A stretch of DNA of 64,000 nt from Corynebacterium sp. Lineage in GTDB: Bacteria; Actinomycetota; Actinomycetes; Mycobacteriales; Mycobacteriaceae. The position numbers and the translations under genes were made by a program. Below are positions 1,699 to 19,183 of the stretch, piece by piece (position 1 is the stretch's first letter; each line of letters starts with the position of its first letter). The notes under the pieces were generated by a model. It ran no database searches. It saw only the letters and a program-made list of their open reading frames with translations, and was not told the origin of the DNA. The stretch covers positions 62,001 to 126,000 of the forward strand of contig NZ_JAUNLP010000007.1 of NCBI RefSeq assembly GCF_030532195.1, written 5' to 3'.

Positions 1699-1929
1699 AG
1701 CTCAAACCGCCTTTGCATCAAAGTGGATAAAAATTGCCCCAGATACGCAAGAGCGGACCAGGGGGCGGTGTCTTAACAAAAGGTCTAAGCCCAAAAGACT
1801 GTCTCGAAGACTTTTACGCCCCATGGTCCGTATCAAGCGACCAATCGCCCGTGCCCGCTCGATGAAAACTCTTCGCGTGATGCGGGACAGGACCGCCCGC
1901 AGCAGCGCTATCGCTGCAGGCAGGAATGA

Positions 1930-2616
1930 TTACTTGGACTCAATCATGCCGTCAGCGCCACGGTCCGGCTGACCGGCCTCGAGGATGTCGGCGGAGATGG
2001 TGATGTCCAGGTCGTAGGAGTTCTTGTTGCCCTGCGGGTCAGAGAAGGTGAAGGTTGCCTCACGGTTCTGGCCAGCGGCGCTGCTGTTGGCGCCAACCAG
2101 GGTGGTCGGGTCCAGCTTGTTGGTGTAGTAAGCGATGCAGCCGGTGCCTTCCTTGGCGTTCTTGGCCAGTGGCTTGATGATAGCCTCCGGGCCAGCAACA
2201 ATCTGGCACTCGCGCGGCAGGGAGAGATCGCCCTTGGCCGCCTTAGCGAAACGCGGGGTCTCAGCGACCTTGGTCAACTTGACCTCGCCGAGGCCTTCAA
2301 CCTCAACAGAGTCCAGCGTGTAGACGGACTCAGTTGCGCGCTGCTGGTTGCTGGCGGAGAACTTCAGACCAGCGGTGCCAGCCTCCGGGTCAACCAGGAT
2401 GTGAGCGTCGCGGATGTTGATGAAGCCGAGAGCCGGGTTAGCGTCGCCAGCACCGGTGCCAGCAGCGTCCTTGCCAGCGTTCATTGCACCGTCGACAGCT
2501 GGGTGCTGGTTAGCGGTCTGCGAAATCTGGCCGGCGCCACAGGCAGCCAGCGCAATTGCGGATGCCGCGGAGACGGTAACGAGGGCGCTGCGGCGAAGTA
2601 CGGACTTGAAGGCCAT
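1930..2616 (-). CDS. Secreted lipoprotein of unknown function
   Basis: The 228-aa product begins with a basic n-region, a hydrophobic core and a lipobox LAAC with Cys26, so it should be a lipid-anchored extracytoplasmic protein. I recognise no catalytic motif; the rest looks like a beta-rich domain. A good ribosome binding site (GGAGGAAA) sits about 8 nt before the ATG. As I recall, a hypothetical lipoprotein lies between radA and carD in other corynebacteria too, so this is probably a conserved but uncharacterised gene. It is transcribed divergently from carD, and the shared intergenic region contains a large dyad. Confidence 0.85.
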   Translation of the reverse strand: MAFKSVLRRSALVTVSAASAIALAACGAGQISQTANQHPAVDGAMNAGKDAAGTGAGDANPALGFINIRDAHILVDPEAGTAGLKFSASNQQRATESVYTLDSVEVEGLGEVKLTKVAETPRFAKAAKGDLSLPRECQIVAGPEAIIKPLAKNAKEGTGCIAYYTNKLDPTTLVGANSSAAGQNREATFTFSDPQGNKNSYDLDITISADILEAGQPDRGADGMIESK

Positions 2617-2668
2617 GACTAGGTTTCCTCCAGTAGCTCGAGGATGGGCGATAGGATTTTGTATTTAA

Positions 2669-2699
2669 AGAACACCTTAGTGTCTTCCTAAGATGTTCT
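2669..2699. promoter_or_regulatory. 12-bp inverted repeat between lipoprotein gene and carD
   Basis: Two 12-nt arms (AGAACACCTTAG at 2669-2680 and CTAAGATGTTCT at 2688-2699) are complementary except at one position and are separated by 7 nt. The site lies between two divergent genes, so a terminator role is unlikely. An operator, or a 5' UTR hairpin of the lipoprotein mRNA, fits better. Just downstream, an extended -10 (TGATAGGGT, hexamer 2732-2737) could drive carD. Confidence 0.55.
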
Positions 2700-2768
2700 C
2701 ATACTACCCGTAAAATCATGGGGGGACATGATAGGGTGGAAGGCCGTTGGAAAGGGCGTGTGCATTAC

Positions 2769-3344
2769 ATGGAATTCAGCATTGGCGATACCGTAGTTTA
2801 TCCACACCACGGAGCCGCAAAGATTGAAAACATCGTGGAGCGAGAGCTGAACGGAGAAACTGTTCAGTACCTCGTATTGCAGATTCTGCAGAGTGATCTG
2901 AATATCCAGGTGCCAGCCAAGAACGCCGAGCTGGTCGGTGTCCGCGATGTGGTCGGCGAAGAGGGTCTGCTGAAGGTCTTCTCTGTACTGCGCGAGACCG
3001 ATGTTGAAGAGGCCGGAAACTGGTCCCGCCGTTACAAGGCCAACCAGGAGCGCCTGGGTTCCGGCGACATCAATAAGGTCGCAGAAGTTGTTCGTGACCT
3101 CTGGCGCCGTGACCAGGACCGCGGTCTGTCCGCAGGTGAAAAGCGCATGCTGAGCAAGGCTCGTCAGGTTCTCGTCGGCGAGCTGGCTCTGGCGGAGGGC
3201 GTCGATGAGGCCAAGACTGAAGAAGTCTTTGCTCGCATTGATGCCACCATTGAGCGTCACCGCGCACTGGCAGAGGAAAAGGCTGCTGGTGATAAGAAGG
3301 ACGACGCCGATGACAAGCCGGTGGATCTCGACGCTAAGAAATAG
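2769..3344 (+). CDS. carD: RNA polymerase-binding transcription factor CarD
   Basis: CarD binds the RNA polymerase beta subunit and stabilises open promoter complexes; it is essential in mycobacteria. The 191-aa protein starts [17 protein letters not shown], the canonical N-terminus of the Tudor-like RNAP-interacting domain. The DNA-binding C-terminal part contains the highly conserved NWSRRYKAN and DLWRRDQ...LSAGEKRML segments. The frame is open upstream to 2718, but the family start and the GGAAAGGG ribosome binding site at 2749-2756 favour ATG 2769. The C-terminal tail is extended and charged (Lys/Asp-rich) compared with mycobacterial CarD. A strong terminator follows. Confidence 0.96.
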
Positions 3345-3399
3345 AGCTGTCTGATAAATAGAGCTGAGCGATAGGCCGGTCTGACAGACTTTTTACAAG

Positions 3400-3443
3400 A
3401 CGGCTGGTGCACAAATATCCGACGTGTGCACCAGCCGTTTTGT
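3400..3443 (+). terminator. Intrinsic terminator after carD
   Basis: A perfect 14-bp stem (ACGGCTGGTGCACA at 3400-3413 with its complement at 3425-3438), an 11-nt loop and a short T-rich tail. It separates carD from cysS and overlaps the upstream part of the cysS reading frame, which supports the later cysS start. Confidence 0.9.
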
Positions 3444-3485
3444 GCATTTTCACCCGCGTGTAGTTCCACCGCTATGCTCGGGGGC

Positions 3486-4889
3486 GTGACTTTTCAAATC
3501 TTCGATACCGCATCCCGCCAGCTGAAGGATTTCGAGCCGCTCCGTAAGGGGCATGCCTCTATCTACCTGTGTGGTGCAACGCCGCAGGCGCAGCCACACA
3601 TCGGCCACGTTCGCTCCGGTGTTGCCTTTGACATCCTGCGTCGTTGGCTCATGGCCAAGGGGTTGGACGTTGCATTCGTGCGCAACGTCACCGATATCGA
3701 TGACAAGATTTTGACCAAGGCAGCAGAACATGGCCGTCCCTGGTGGGAGTGGGTCTCCCGCTTCGAGCGCGAATTTACCTGGGCCTACAATCAGCTCGGC
3801 GTGCTCCCGCCATCCGTTGAACCGCGCGCGACCGGCCATGTCACTCAAATGGTCGAGTACATGCAGCGTCTGATGGACAACGGCTTTGCCTACGATGTCG
3901 ACGGCAGCGTCTACTTCGACGTTGATGCCTGGACCAAGGCTGAGGGCAGTGACTACGGCAGCCTGTCCGGCAACCGCGTGGAAGATATGGAGCAGGGCGA
4001 GACCAATACCCCTGGCAAGCGCGGCGCGCACGACTTCGCGCTGTGGAAGGCCGCCAAGCCGGGTGAGCCGTCGTGGCCGACTCCGTGGGGCAACGGCCGC
4101 CCGGGCTGGCACCTAGAGTGCTCCGCCATGGCGACCTACTACCTGGGTTCCGAGTTCGACATCCACTGCGGCGGTCTGGATCTGCAGTTCCCGCACCACG
4201 AAAACGAAATTGCACAGTCGCACGCAGCCGGTGACGGCTTCGCCCGCTACTGGATGCACAATCACTGGGTCACCATGGCCGGTGAGAAGATGTCCAAGTC
4301 GCTTGGCAACGTGCTGTCAGTGCCGCACATCCTGACCATGGTTCGTCCGGTCGAGCTACGCTACTACCTCGGCAGCGCCCACTACCGTTCCGTCCTGGAG
4401 TACTCCGAGGAGGCTCTGCAGGAGGCAGCGGCGGGTTACCGTCGTATCGAGGCGTTCTTGCACCGTGCCGTCGATAAGCTCGGCGATATCAAAGTGGGGA
4501 AGTGGACGCCGGAATTTGAAGCCGCGCTCGACGCCGATCTCGCCGTCCCACGCGCGCTCGCGGAGATTCACAACGCCGTGCGTGCGGGCAATCAGGCGCT
4601 TGCCGACGGCGACGAGACCAAGGCGAAGGAGATTGCCGGCGCTGTCCGCGCAATGGCCGGTGTCCTCGGTTTTGATCCGCTGGATGAGAAGTGGGCAACG
4701 GAGACCTCTACCTCGGACGGCGCAATGCATGCTCTGGGTGTTCTGGTGGAGCATCAGCTGGAAGAGCGCACCCGTGCTCGTGCTGAGAAGGACTGGGCTA
4801 CTGCCGATGCTGTGCGTGACCGTCTGAAGGAAGCGGGTATTGAGGTAACTGATACACCGGATGGTCCGGCTTGGTCTGTCGCTGATTAA
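3486..4889 (+). CDS. cysS: Cysteinyl-tRNA synthetase
   Basis: Class I aminoacyl-tRNA synthetase that charges tRNA-Cys. The HIGH-like signature appears as PHIGHVRSG, the zinc-binding residues are in YLCGATP, HLECS and HHENE, and the KMSKS loop is EKMSKSLGN. The product from GTG 3486 is 467 aa, a normal length. I chose this start because the open frame upstream (to 3426) runs through the carD terminator, because family members start VTFQIFD-like, and because a -10 hexamer TATGCT (3473-3478) lies 7 nt before it, implying a leaderless transcript. Confidence 0.95.
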
Positions 4890-14320: not shown

Positions 14321-14396
14321 GCCGGGATGGCGCAATTGGTAGCGCAACTGATTTGTAATCAGTAGGTTACGGGTTCGAGTCCCGTTTCCGGCTCCA
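14321..14396 (+). tRNA. tRNA-Thr (anticodon UGU)
   Basis: A complete cloverleaf. The acceptor arm GCCGGGA (14321-14327) pairs with TTCCGGC (14386-14392); the anticodon stem ACTGA/TCAGT encloses the loop TTTGTAA, giving anticodon TGT, which reads ACA/ACG threonine codons; the T arm contains GGTTCGAGTCC; CCA is encoded (14394-14396). A terminator follows directly. Confidence 0.97.
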
Positions 14397-14399
14397 AAG

Positions 14400-14436
14400 C
14401 CCCTGGTAGGAGACAAATCCTGCCAGGGGTTCTTTG
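14400..14436 (+). terminator. Intrinsic terminator after tRNA-Thr
   Basis: A 12-bp stem (CCCCTGGTAGGA, 14400-14411, with TCCTGCCAGGGG, 14418-14429; one G-T wobble) is followed by a T-rich tail TTCTTT. Confidence 0.88.
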
Positions 14437-14569
14437 GTGTAAGAGGGTGCTTGCAACACCTTTGCAACGTATTTCATTGCTTCAATGTAAAAAATGACCC
14501 GATCCGGGTGGGGCGAGTCGTAATCCTCCGTCGCTCCCCGACCGTGCTCCATACAGGCAGGGAGCGAGG

Positions 14570-14609
14570 GCCCCCGTTTCTAATGCCTCAGTATCGCACC
14601 GGATAACCT
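14570..14609 (+). promoter_or_regulatory. Promoter and putative control box of the restriction endonuclease gene
   Basis: The box GCCCCCGTTTC (14570-14580) is followed after 23 nt by a -10 hexamer TAACCT (14604-14609), which ends 7 nt before the ATG at 14617, so the mRNA should be leaderless. Relative to the start codon the box covers -47 to -37. The same 11-mer occurs at the equivalent place before the methyltransferase gene. Confidence 0.7.
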
Positions 14610-14616
14610 TTGGGCC

Positions 14617-15726
14617 ATGGCAGAACCTTACCTCTACGGACTTTCCGGTAACCACGATTTTACGAACACTGAATCGCTTGGAAAGAACGTTTTCACCAAC
14701 GCATTCCCTCTGGCGCTAGCACAGTACATGGATCAGCAAAGGGGCCTGAAGCTTCCGCTCATTAGTGCCAAAGTGGATGCAAGAGGTGACATCACGACGG
14801 AACATATAATGACTCCGTGGAGTGAGATTATTGAGACTGAATCCACCCGCGCAAAATTCCTTTTTGAAACCGTCTTTGACCAGTTCGATCGATACACTCA
14901 CACTTCTGCAAACAAATCGGATGTTGTGGTAATTAACGAGCGGGGAGAGCATCGTCGCGCGTTTGAGGTGAAGCTCGTGGTAGTGCCAACCTCAAGTACA
15001 GCAAGTCGCCCGCGGGAAGAGCAGTCTTGTGAGATTGTTTTTCGACCCTCGTCGATAGAGCAGTTAGCATTCTCAATCGCGCACAGTTACGGTGCTGAGA
15101 GGCGGTTTGAGCTGCTCGACATCATCACAAAAGTTCTAATTCATCCAATAGATTTTGACTGGTCAAACAGAGAGTTTATGGCTGACAAGATTGATCTATT
15201 TATTGAGGCTGCAGAAGCGCTCATCGCGGCTGGGGTCTCATCACAGACACCGCTTGTCCTTATCGCAATTTGGAGGACAGTTGGGCAAACGCCAAAGATT
15301 GATAATCATGCGTTTGACACATTTGTAGCAACCGATTTGGGCTTCTTGGTTCTACTTTTGAACACTGTGAAAAGGGGCAAAAAGACCAGCCAGATTACCC
15401 GTCCGCAGCGCTCACTTATCTGGCTCATTCACGCGCTCTGGCAGTATGGCATGCAGAGGTCGCTGAATTTTCCACGTACTCACGAGAAGCTCGCCTACGG
15501 TCCTCAGACTGATAAGGCTGGATCCTTCGCGAACGTACCTACCAGAGAGTTCATTATGTCTCCTGAGTTCATTAATCCCCGCGTTTCCCGCGAAGAACGC
15601 CATAAAATCCTAGCCCCAGAAGCGGTGCCTGAGCTGATGCCAGAGAGGCGTCTTGACCAATCGCTCTGGATTCAAGATTTGTTAGAGGGTGCAGACATCG
15701 AATTTCTGGGAGGAGAAACTATCTAG
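14617..15726 (+). CDS. Type II restriction endonuclease, HindVP-like
   Basis: The 369-aa protein begins with a YLYGLSGNHDFT...LGKNVFTNAFPLALAQYM segment that resembles the start of the HindVP/HgiDI family of type II endonucleases (GRCGYC specificity in known members). A PD-(D/E)XK-like catalytic core fits Asp102 and Glu117-Val-Lys119 (FEVKL). It is convergent with an m5C methyltransferase gene and overlaps it by 4 bp at the shared CTAG stop codons. Codon use is AT-richer than the core genes, suggesting acquisition. Nuclease function is well supported by context; the family assignment is from memory of the motif, and specificity is inferred. Confidence 0.78.
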   Translation: MAEPYLYGLSGNHDFTNTESLGKNVFTNAFPLALAQYMDQQRGLKLPLISAKVDARGDITTEHIMTPWSEIIETESTRAKFLFETVFDQFDRYTHTSANKSDVVVINERGEHRRAFEVKLVVVPTSSTASRPREEQSCEIVFRPSSIEQLAFSIAHSYGAERRFELLDIITKVLIHPIDFDWSNREFMADKIDLFIEAAEALIAAGVSSQTPLVLIAIWRTVGQTPKIDNHAFDTFVATDLGFLVLLLNTVKRGKKTSQITRPQRSLIWLIHALWQYGMQRSLNFPRTHEKLAYGPQTDKAGSFANVPTREFIMSPEFINPRVSREERHKILAPEAVPELMPERRLDQSLWIQDLLEGADIEFLGGETI

Positions 15727-16868
15727 GTGTGGTGCTCCACCCATGCCTGGGCGATGGCCTCACCGATGAATTTTCCCAAACGTACAGGAACAGCGTTACC
15801 AATCATCTGTTCGATATTGGTGCGGGAACCAACCCAAGTGAACCCCTGAGGGAAGGTCTGTACTTCGGCGCGTTCCGTGGTAGTCAGAGGGCGAGCCTCC
15901 GAAACTGGCGCGGTGTCGCCAGGATGTCCTGGGTAACCAGCAGGAATGGGCCTGTTGACACCACGGATGGTGGGGGAGGGCTCGTCGATGGAGAAGATGC
16001 CGCGTCGAGCGTATGAGCGTGGGTGACGGTAGTAGTGTTCCACGCCCAGACGATTGCCGAAATAGTCTCGCATCGTCATAGGTTGGTCTGACTGGTTTTC
16101 TTGCAGAAGCTCCAGAATACGGGTGGTCAAAGCCTCTGAATGCGTGCCGAAAGCGATTAGGCGCTTGCGCGTCTGGGGTACGCCGCAACGGTCCGCGTTA
16201 AGTACGATTTTCTCAACGTAATACCCCGCATCGCGCATAGTGCCTAACGCGCGGTTGTAGGCGGCTGCACCCGCTGCTCGCGCGACGTTTTCCATCACGA
16301 AAAGTGGTGGCTGGTAGTGAGCAACAATGGCTGCGTATTTCTCCGTCAAATCCGCCCTGGCACCTTCTCTGCGCTTGCCAGCGCTGGAAAAATCTTGACA
16401 CGGAGGACCACCAATAATTGCTGGGCGGGGTGATTTTTCAAAGAATGGAGCGAGCCGTTCTACGCTGGCCGGGACATTGCTGAGGTCCAGGAGTTCTGCG
16501 GGGTGACCGAGGTTCGCGTTGTAGGTATCCACCGCGCAGGCCCAATTGTCGAAACCGTACAAAACGTTGAATTGGGCGAGCTGAAAACCGAGTGATAAAC
16601 CGCCGCAACCAGCAAAAAGGTCAACTACTGTCGGTAGCGCTGGATCACACGGTGTATCACCAACCGAGCCTGTCGGCGGAGCAGCGAAAGCCTCGATAAT
16701 CTCCCTGGCCCACACCGCGCCGCCATTGATGTCAGGCGAGGTAGGCTCAGGTAGTTGCCCCCGAGAGCGCATCGTGCGAACTGTCGCTGGTGATTTACCC
16801 AGCAGGGCAGCAAGACGCTTCACGTCGTATAGGCCCGTCGCCTCGTCTGGTCCGGTCGAAATGGTCAT
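15723..16868 (-). CDS. DNA (cytosine-5) methyltransferase with N-terminal helix-turn-helix
   Basis: 381 aa. All main C5-methyltransferase motifs are present: motif I DLFAGCGGL (83-91), motif IV GGPPCQDFSS with catalytic Cys157, ENV (193-195), motif VIII QTRKRL (231-236), a target-recognition region, IX RGVNRPIP and X GNAVP (357-361). Residues 13-60 form an added MerR/excisionase-like helix-turn-helix (LYDVKRLAALLGKSPATVRTM, then RGQLPEP and a VWAREII segment). Methylation protects host DNA from the convergent nuclease. An extra DNA-binding domain of this kind lets several m5C methyltransferases act as transcriptional regulators of their own systems. Confidence 0.93.
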   Translation of the reverse strand: MTISTGPDEATGLYDVKRLAALLGKSPATVRTMRSRGQLPEPTSPDINGGAVWAREIIEAFAAPPTGSVGDTPCDPALPTVVDLFAGCGGLSLGFQLAQFNVLYGFDNWACAVDTYNANLGHPAELLDLSNVPASVERLAPFFEKSPRPAIIGGPPCQDFSSAGKRREGARADLTEKYAAIVAHYQPPLFVMENVARAAGAAAYNRALGTMRDAGYYVEKIVLNADRCGVPQTRKRLIAFGTHSEALTTRILELLQENQSDQPMTMRDYFGNRLGVEHYYRHPRSYARRGIFSIDEPSPTIRGVNRPIPAGYPGHPGDTAPVSEARPLTTTERAEVQTFPQGFTWVGSRTNIEQMIGNAVPVRLGKFIGEAIAQAWVEHHT

Positions 16869-16875
16869 ACAAACT

Positions 16876-16914
16876 ACCCTACGACACTAGGGGGTCATAA
16901 ATCGAAACGGGGGC
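16876..16914 (-). promoter_or_regulatory. Promoter and putative control box of the methyltransferase gene
   Basis: On the minus strand the box GCCCCCGTTTC (16904-16914) precedes, by 22 nt, the -10 hexamer TAGGGT (16876-16881), which ends 7 nt before the ATG at 16868; again a leaderless layout. The box covers -46 to -36 relative to the start, nearly the same as at the nuclease promoter. Confidence 0.7.
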
Positions 16915-17716
16915 GTTGCAAAACGTAAACATGCAGGTAATTGCGATTAATCTTGTTTGAGTAGCGCAGCGAGAAGAGGCCGGGCGAAAAGATGCTCTCG
17001 GCATTTGATGCTGACGCTTGGGAATTGCTGCACGACTGGTTGCTGCCGTACCGTATCATTTTCGCCGGTGCGGTAGATTTCGTCGGAGCGCCCAGTCTCG
17101 CCTTCTGTGGCCACGCCGTCGATGCTCTAGAAGTCTCTGGGGTGAGGGGCAGTCTGCGTGCTCGGGCCGGGGTGGCTGGGGCATGGATTGCGCCGACGAA
17201 TCCTGCTCCCTCGCACCGCGGCTGCTGGGGGAGTGGGGTGGGCATCATCATCGAAAGCATAGATTCTGGAGCGCTTCCGGAAGTCCTGTCGAGATAGCCG
17301 CGTTGCTACGAGGCTGCCGGTGATGTCCGTAGGGGGCTTGCGCCCGCAAGGTATCCGGTGAAAACCGGCAACTTAGGTTAGCGAAGTTTTTCCAGGGTAT
17401 ACAGTAGGCGATTAGCGCAACCGCTGGTGTATTTGCTTGCGTTTGGCCCGTCTGCGATTCCCTTCACTGTGCGGCTAGCTAAGGGAGGGGGCATCGCAAG
17501 CATGGCATTTAGCCCGAGCGGTATCAACGCTCCGAGGCGACCCGGCTTTGTGCAACGTCTGTGCGTCGCCTGCAGGTCTGCGTTTGTGTGTTTCGAGATT
17601 ATGTTGTGCGCATATTTAGTCATTGATGCCATAGAGCCAAGCATCATCTTGCCTTATAGTGTTGTCGGATTTTCATAACCAGTCAGTGCCTGCAAGTCAG
17701 CTCTTTCCACAACAAA
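16915..17716. other. About 800 bp of weakly coding accessory DNA
   Basis: Overlapping frames on both strands (for example a 101-codon frame at 16992-17297 on plus and a 121-codon frame at 16895-17260 on minus; 83 codons at 17427-17678 on plus) show no recognisable domain or ribosome binding site, and each looks like the shadow of another. The stretch may be decayed coding sequence left in an accessory region. Confidence 0.4.
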
Positions 17717-18487: not shown

Positions 18488-18490
18488 GTG

Positions 18491-19183
18491 ATGAATAGTA
18501 TCTATGAACATGTCATGGCTTCAATGGCGAAACCGGCGATAAAGCCTGATTTTTGCTCGATGGCGTTAGCTAGGTTTCCAGGTGAATGTTTTGGAGATCT
18601 GATTCGGGCGAACTTCGCGTCTCCTAAAGAGGTCCTGGATGTTCAGGTAGCGCGAATGATACGTGACTTCAAGGGGCCTGCAATAGGGGTGATGGGTAGT
18701 GCTTCAAATCCGTTCATGGCAAATAACGTTTCACAAAAGTGGTATGACGAGCAATTGGAGATAGTGGGCTCAGCTGCATTTCAAGCCGTGCTGGGGCGGT
18801 ATGCATATCTGAATCGACAACGGCTACGTGATGTTATGGCCTCTGTTGAAATTGTGCATGGCGTGGATGGTGAAGGCTGGCGTGACGATGACGGTCCAAT
18901 TGAATGCGATGACACAAGCTTTGGAAAAGTTCTGGAATGCGATGGAGGGAGTGCAAATGTACTCCTCAGTAAATTAGCTGATTTTACAATTAATCTAATG
19001 GTAAAATTCGGAAATTGCCCGCGTCAATTATTTCAAAATAGTGAATTTTCAATAGTTCTTGCCACGCAGATTATCTTGGTCGTATTTAGCTCTGGTGGAA
19101 CTGAGGAAATTCAAGATGAATCTGTAAAGTTGTGGATGGCGTATTGCTTGGCTAAGGCGATACGGGATGTTGCTAAGGGGTAA
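18491..19183 (+). CDS. Orphan AT-rich gene, unknown function
   Basis: A 230-aa protein (from ATG 18491; GTG 18488 also in frame) with no family I recognise. It is soluble, contains two acidic segments (for example DDDGPIECDD) and a C-terminal hydrophobic helix-like stretch (ATQIILVVF). Its A+T-rich codon use differs clearly from the core genes, and it stands alone in an accessory region, which points to horizontal transfer. Since it lies beside a restriction-modification pair, a defence or toxin-antitoxin role is conceivable but unsupported. Confidence 0.6.
   Translation: MNSIYEHVMASMAKPAIKPDFCSMALARFPGECFGDLIRANFASPKEVLDVQVARMIRDFKGPAIGVMGSASNPFMANNVSQKWYDEQLEIVGSAAFQAVLGRYAYLNRQRLRDVMASVEIVHGVDGEGWRDDDGPIECDDTSFGKVLECDGGSANVLLSKLADFTINLMVKFGNCPRQLFQNSEFSIVLATQIILVVFSSGGTEEIQDESVKLWMAYCLAKAIRDVAKG

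Follow-up and report, generated by a model that had tools for sequence, protein, structure and literature searches.

A HindVP/BsaHI-type restriction-modification system whose methyltransferase carries a BldC/MerR-like domain and may control its own promoter

Introduction

When a restriction-modification (R-M) system enters a new cell it makes methylase ahead of nuclease, and the mechanisms known for this are chiefly C-proteins and 434-type helix-turn-helix (HTH) methyltransferases with divergent genes. Methyltransferases with N-terminal HTH domains have been described as repressors of their own genes (PMC3874152, PMC3695355), and the N-terminal domain of M.SsoII is 434-repressor-like (PMC3978073). 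A methyltransferase with a MerR/BldC-like domain that is conserved between Actinomycetota and Bacillota, and whose own promoter bears a recognisable element, would add another solution, one that raises the question of how the restriction gene is timed when its promoter lies 2.3 kb from that of the methyltransferase.

Here we analyse a candidate of this kind in the window (the whole stretch of 64,000 nucleotides that was studied, from a Corynebacterium genome of 2.41 Mb). The reading we prefer, with a probability of roughly 0.55, is that a HindVP/BsaHI-type methyltransferase doubles as a regulator: by way of a BldC/MerR-like HTH it would bind a 29-bp element at its own promoter and so limit itself.

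Results

Family assignments make the two genes considered here, R and M, a HindVP/BsaHI-type type II R-M system:

14617-15726, forward strand: R, HindVP/BsaHI-family type II restriction endonuclease, 369 aa (Pfam RE_HindVP, PADLOC REase_II, motifs)
15723-16868, reverse strand: M, C5-cytosine methyltransferase, 381 aa (Pfam DNA_methylase, PADLOC MTase_II)

The genes converge and overlap by 4 nt at their stop codons. The RE_HindVP profile is matched by most of the length of R (E 9e-79, profile positions 2-325 of 332), while M matches both DNA_methylase (Pfam, E 1e-52) and MTase_II (PADLOC, E 3e-114), its catalytic domain beginning at about residue 80. The active BsaHI enzyme has ExK and PERR-D motifs (PMC2413257), and comparison with that work places in R an ExK motif, E117-V-K119, together with MPERRLD, which resembles SPERRFD; because these motifs are present, activity is predicted, and R is probably an active endonuclease. 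From the family of both proteins the target is predicted to be GRCGYC. The window shows no clear avoidance of this sequence (95 sites observed against 108 expected). Control by methylation of GRCGYC at the promoters was considered and rejected, since the only such site in 14400-17100, at 15647, lies within R. No small HTH controller gene of the C-protein type was recognised near the pair in the list of open reading frames, the short frames having been scanned in part.

The pair directly adjoins a tRNA gene, and the segment to which it belongs breaks synteny with a related genome:

14321-14396, forward strand: tRNA-Thr(TGT), left border of the variable segment with the R-M pair

The tRNA and its 3' flank (14321-14412) match the related genome at 93%, and synteny returns near ~19663. 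At the same tRNA the relative carries a phage-like island of ~8 kb and a second, attR-like copy of the tRNA 3' end; we therefore regard the tRNA-Thr site as an integration hotspot, occupied by the R-M system here and by a prophage-like element there. The same variable segment also holds, at 18488-19183, a 231-aa open reading frame with zero Pfam matches and a weak NCBIfam match only.

M carries an extra domain at its N-terminus:

16683-16832, reverse strand: N-terminal winged helix-turn-helix of M, residues 13-62, BldC/MerR/Xis-like (HTH_17, alignment, AlphaFold models, Foldseek)

An earlier, sequence-only reading of this DNA had described a convergent R-M pair whose C5 methyltransferase is fused to an HTH, the extra domain being put at residues 13-60. 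The Pfam and PADLOC identities and the gene coordinates bear out the former, and the domain itself is recovered twice over: as HTH_17 at residues 13-41, below the Pfam cut-off in each single protein and present in four of four homologues, and as a beta-HTH-wing-helix fold at residues 13-62 in the AlphaFold models. Alignment of the homologues shows the HTH to be highly conserved, with R31 and R36 invariant. Among solved structures the nearest in fold are BldC, RacA, MerR regulators, lambda gpNu1 and Xis/RdfS, with modest E-values; for BldC, Foldseek gives a probability of 0.99, a TM score (target) of 0.66-0.76 and E of about 0.04-0.09. Despite the modest E-values the fold class is consistent, and it is predicted to be MerR/BldC/Xis-like. 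It follows that the likeness to M.SsoII, which the sequence-only reading had also drawn, holds as an analogy of function only: as a relative of the domain M.SsoII falls away, HTH_17 being set against a 434-repressor-like fold.

Four systems pair a HindVP-type R with an HTH-bearing M: that of the window, one in genome G244 (locus L037) and two in viral contigs (L103 and L104). Identity among them is 60-64% for M and 46-52% for R. The G244 system is of the same family and has its genes in tandem, R then M; in L103, a prophage record, and in L104, which has 34% GC, they converge. Low GC and neighbouring genes suggest that L104 is a Bacillota element. Its system (1925-4266) adjoins an ABC-F gene and a nucleotidyltransferase gene, neighbours that presumably resemble the lsa(E)-lnu(B) resistance genes.

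The further HindVP systems examined, L095-L101 and L108-L110, encode an M without the domain, and the plasmid and phage relatives include no HTH-bearing M among the matches listed. A search of genome contigs with the R protein returned no homologue of the HTH-bearing M; with the R alignment it returned only relatives of ~30% identity, the HTH being absent wherever an M was present. The genus, family, order and phylum samples gave only G244, a decayed copy in G002, two HTH-less Rubrobacter systems and one partial match, and the homologue search of viral contigs gave L103 and L104 only. A class-level search with the HTH domain yielded small MerR/BldC-like matches (E 1e-7 or weaker), among which no methyltransferases were identified. 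An apparent HTH match in L026 was discarded as read-through of another frame. Because the HTH occurs in G244, L103 and L104 and is absent from more distant systems, it marks one branch of the HindVP family that has spread between phyla.

Two observations from the genus may be recorded here. The decayed gene of G002, a congener (L036, 5368-6310), is a HindVP gene with a frameshift and a stop and without an M: a solitary, broken restriction gene. The closest methyltransferases in the genus (L006 and L007; 52-57% identity over the catalytic domain) are without the HTH and adjoin two conserved genes (266-268 aa and 140-141 aa) of another defence-like cluster.

Both genes of the pair have putative leaderless promoters:

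14604-14609, forward strand: putative -10 hexamer of R, TAACCT, 7 nt before the ATG (direct reading)
16876-16881, reverse strand: putative -10 hexamer of M, TAGGGT, 7 nt before the ATG (direct reading)

The hexamers, each of the form TANNNT, end 7 nt before both start codons as the sequence-only reading had proposed. This signature, a TANNNT that ends 6-7 nt ahead of the start, has a rate of 0.9% at random positions and is present at 7 of 56 gene starts in the window; inspection by eye shows it as well at both G244 genes and at R of L103. Such promoters are ordinary here, since a third of the mRNAs of C. glutamicum are leaderless (PMC3890552). In the 60 nt before either start there is no significant inverted repeat.

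Upstream of these hexamers the two promoters share an 11-bp box (offsets throughout count the A of the ATG as +1):

14570-14580, forward strand: 11-bp box GCCCCCGTTTC before R, -47 to -37, exact
16904-16914, reverse strand: 11-bp box GCCCCCGTTTC before M, -46 to -36, exact; left half of the M-promoter element described below

Direct reading confirms the two exact copies, inverted with respect to each other, and their offsets. The genome holds exactly two copies of the box, both at this locus. This number is not unusual, because a reversed control pattern likewise has two; with one mismatch allowed the box is found at 30 places and the control at 52. What is notable about the box is its placement, not its copy number. 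In dinucleotide shuffles of the 150-bp upstream regions of R and M, a shared 11-mer appears anywhere in 0.46% of cases and at an equal offset (within 1 nt) in 0.01%. When the crude gene starts in the window are compared in all 1540 pairs, a common 9-mer or longer at an equal offset turns up in three pairs, of which only the R-M pair is known to reach 11.

The box as such is not conserved: none of the homologous promoters contains it exactly, and the closest sequence in them has 3 mismatches in 11. The R promoters of G244, L103 and L104 have no recognisable counterpart of it and show no mutual similarity above that of shuffles, so that the R copy is seen in this genome only. The box before R may thus be a coincidence, the functional element being confined to the M promoter – an account that is compatible with autoregulation by M, and one that we consider possible at somewhat less than even odds. 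From the shuffle results and the number of promoter pairs we estimate ~0.07 such coincidences across the window, which renders the placement suggestive and not decisive, and conservation at R is zero in three homologous systems; on the other side, R and M are the very pair for which sharing makes biological sense, and the offsets agree to 1 nt.

A different view of the boxes would make them the terminal inverted repeats of a mobile cassette containing R and M. The copies are inverted, they flank both genes, and their segment stands beside the tRNA-Thr integration hotspot. Target-site duplications of 2-10 nt are nevertheless absent, for which reason terminal repeats were rejected; the interval that the boxes enclose has no transposase, and the copy before M is part of a promoter element that is conserved elsewhere. 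We hold a cassette to be highly improbable.

That promoter element emerged from alignment with the M promoter of L104:

16888-16916, reverse strand: conserved 29-bp M-promoter element ACGCCCCCGTTTCGATTTATGACCCCCTA, candidate operator, -48 to -20 (alignment with the L104 M promoter)
16891-16896, reverse strand: GACCCC core, common to all three available M promoters

The comparison covered three M promoters – those of the window, G244 and L104 – the viral record of L103 beginning at the M ATG. The window element ACGCCCCCGTTTCGATTTATGACCCCCTA and its L104 counterpart ACGCATCCGTTGCCATTATAGACCCCATA align without gaps over 29 bp with 21 identities, a result equalled in 3 of 2000 shuffles and to be read as one among about a dozen promoter comparisons. 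The box forms the left part of this block, and in both promoters GACCCC lies 18 bp downstream of the box start. GACCCC itself stands at -28 in the window, -22 in G244 and -42 in L104 (P 0.007 in shuffles); it is a rare word, preceding 2 of 56 gene starts in the window and occurring twice in the 11-kb, 34%-GC L104 locus. Apart from GACCCC the element is weak in G244, where G....CG...C..TT is retained before it. Comparison of the three systems anchored on GACCCC gives six invariant positions among the 18 preceding columns (P 3e-4), and the resulting 13-base invariant pattern has a single exact match in the 2.41-Mb genome, at M. When a 17-base version of the element was run against 2.9 million viral contigs, it matched five times, namely in L104 and in four contigs with no R or M homologue nearby; in the three of these that were inspected the match lies inside a phage coding frame; the scan therefore added no further system with an HTH-bearing M.

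Counted from the predicted transcription starts, and as read by eye, the block spans about -48 to about -14 across the three systems and overlaps the -35 region and spacer, which is where MerR-type proteins bind. Some of the conserved sequence may belong to the -35 region as such: the aligned block of L104, again by eye, contains the -35-like TTGCCA. The L104 M promoter is also surrounded by a 10-bp perfect inverted repeat (3 of 300 shuffles). In G244 (L037, upstream of 7752 and 6552, reverse strand) the R and M regions share a sequence of their own, TAGTGGATCTGTC and TAGTGGATGTCTC, at differing distances from the two starts (46 of 600 shuffles).

The runs of C in these promoters permit an explanation in which the HTH of M has no part, the sites belonging to a regulator of the host, for example RamA, or being a portion of the -35 region. 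The RamA motifs of C. glutamicum are [ATC]CCCC-N and [ATC]GGGG-N (PMC4847777), the box contains CCCCCG, and the TTGCCA of L104 would suit a -35 function. The RamA motif is, however, so loose that it occurs in 11 of 56 window promoters, and a corynebacterial regulator would leave conservation in a Bacillota element unexplained; GACCCC, for its part, lies in the spacer and is not promoter consensus. An explanation of this sort strikes us as decidedly unlikely.

Discussion

The gene identities, the conserved HTH and the conserved M-promoter element are established by computation. The persistence of the element at the M promoter of a distant bacterium suggests self-control of M, and the co-occurrence of HTH and element, together with precedent, points to the HTH as the probable binder. 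Under autoregulation by M, the enzyme would accumulate from its leaderless promoter until its HTH occupied the element at -48 to -20, between the -35 region and the -10; bound there, M would compete with RNA polymerase, and would limit its further synthesis once the enzyme was sufficient.

A critical issue is whether M acts also on R. That it may do so is suggested by the copy of the half-element at the same place before R; the direction of regulation, and any effect on R, are inferred. The sequence-only reading had M bind the box at both promoters and so time both genes, for instance by activating R from -42 and repressing itself through the downstream GACCCC that only M possesses. One part of this stands, in that the box falls within the conserved M-promoter element, where binding is predicted; the other finds no counterpart at homologous R promoters. 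Arguing for control of both promoters are the equal offset of the box (1e-4 in shuffles) and its centre at about -41/-42, with no good -35 hexamer at R or M. A centre at this point is the usual position of an activator. Moreover M has box and GACCCC 18 bp apart and R the box only, which would give different responses. Against it, nothing like the box is present in the R promoters of G244, L103 and L104, the 11-mer is neither rarer nor commoner in the genome than chance predicts, and the evidence at R comes from one genome. Timing of both genes by M at the box is thus possible, if doubtful; that M also acts on R by way of the half-site common to both promoters is a plausible but weak step, and the half-site at R may reflect coincidence.

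In a further form of the proposal, its BldC/MerR-like domain would let M control both leaderless promoters, which drive convergent genes from points 2.3 kb apart, through a split, non-palindromic operator, in which the full 29-bp element would serve self-repression and the half copy a delayed R. With only the left half of the element before R, M bound there would sit near -42, a position suited to activation, and would thereby delay R. We think this full scheme unlikely; if true, it would order methylase and nuclease without a C-protein or a shared divergent promoter.

Comparison with described systems brings out what is shared and what is particular. Like the BsaHI/HindVP family (GRCGYC), the locus has an RE_HindVP endonuclease with ExK and PERR-D motifs and the family's C5 methyltransferase; unlike it, the methyltransferase carries an N-terminal HTH, which the enzymes of the E. 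coli plasmid systems and of the other HindVP-type systems inspected do not, and the genes converge, whereas those on the plasmids read as divergent. SpyIM-type phage methyltransferases (Streptococcus phage phi1207.3) are likewise C5 enzymes with an N-terminal HTH, but theirs is HTH_3 (XRE type) and that of M is HTH_17.

With the SsoII/Ecl18kI type the locus has in common a C5 methyltransferase of ~380 aa with an N-terminal HTH of ~70 aa, and a promoter element distinct from the methylation site. The differences are substantial: their HTH is modelled on the 434 repressor and ours is an HTH_17, BldC/MerR-like; their element is a 15-bp inverted repeat between divergent genes and ours is non-palindromic, in a locus whose genes converge from promoters 2.3 kb apart. 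To the BldC/MerR-like winged-helix regulators (Xis and RdfS among them) the link is the predicted fold and the HTH_17 family. BldC binds non-palindromic 9-bp direct repeats head to tail, and at two M promoters box and GACCCC lie 18 bp apart; BldC sites are AT-rich, whereas the M-promoter element is C-rich, and in contrast to these regulators the domain described here is fused to a methyltransferase.
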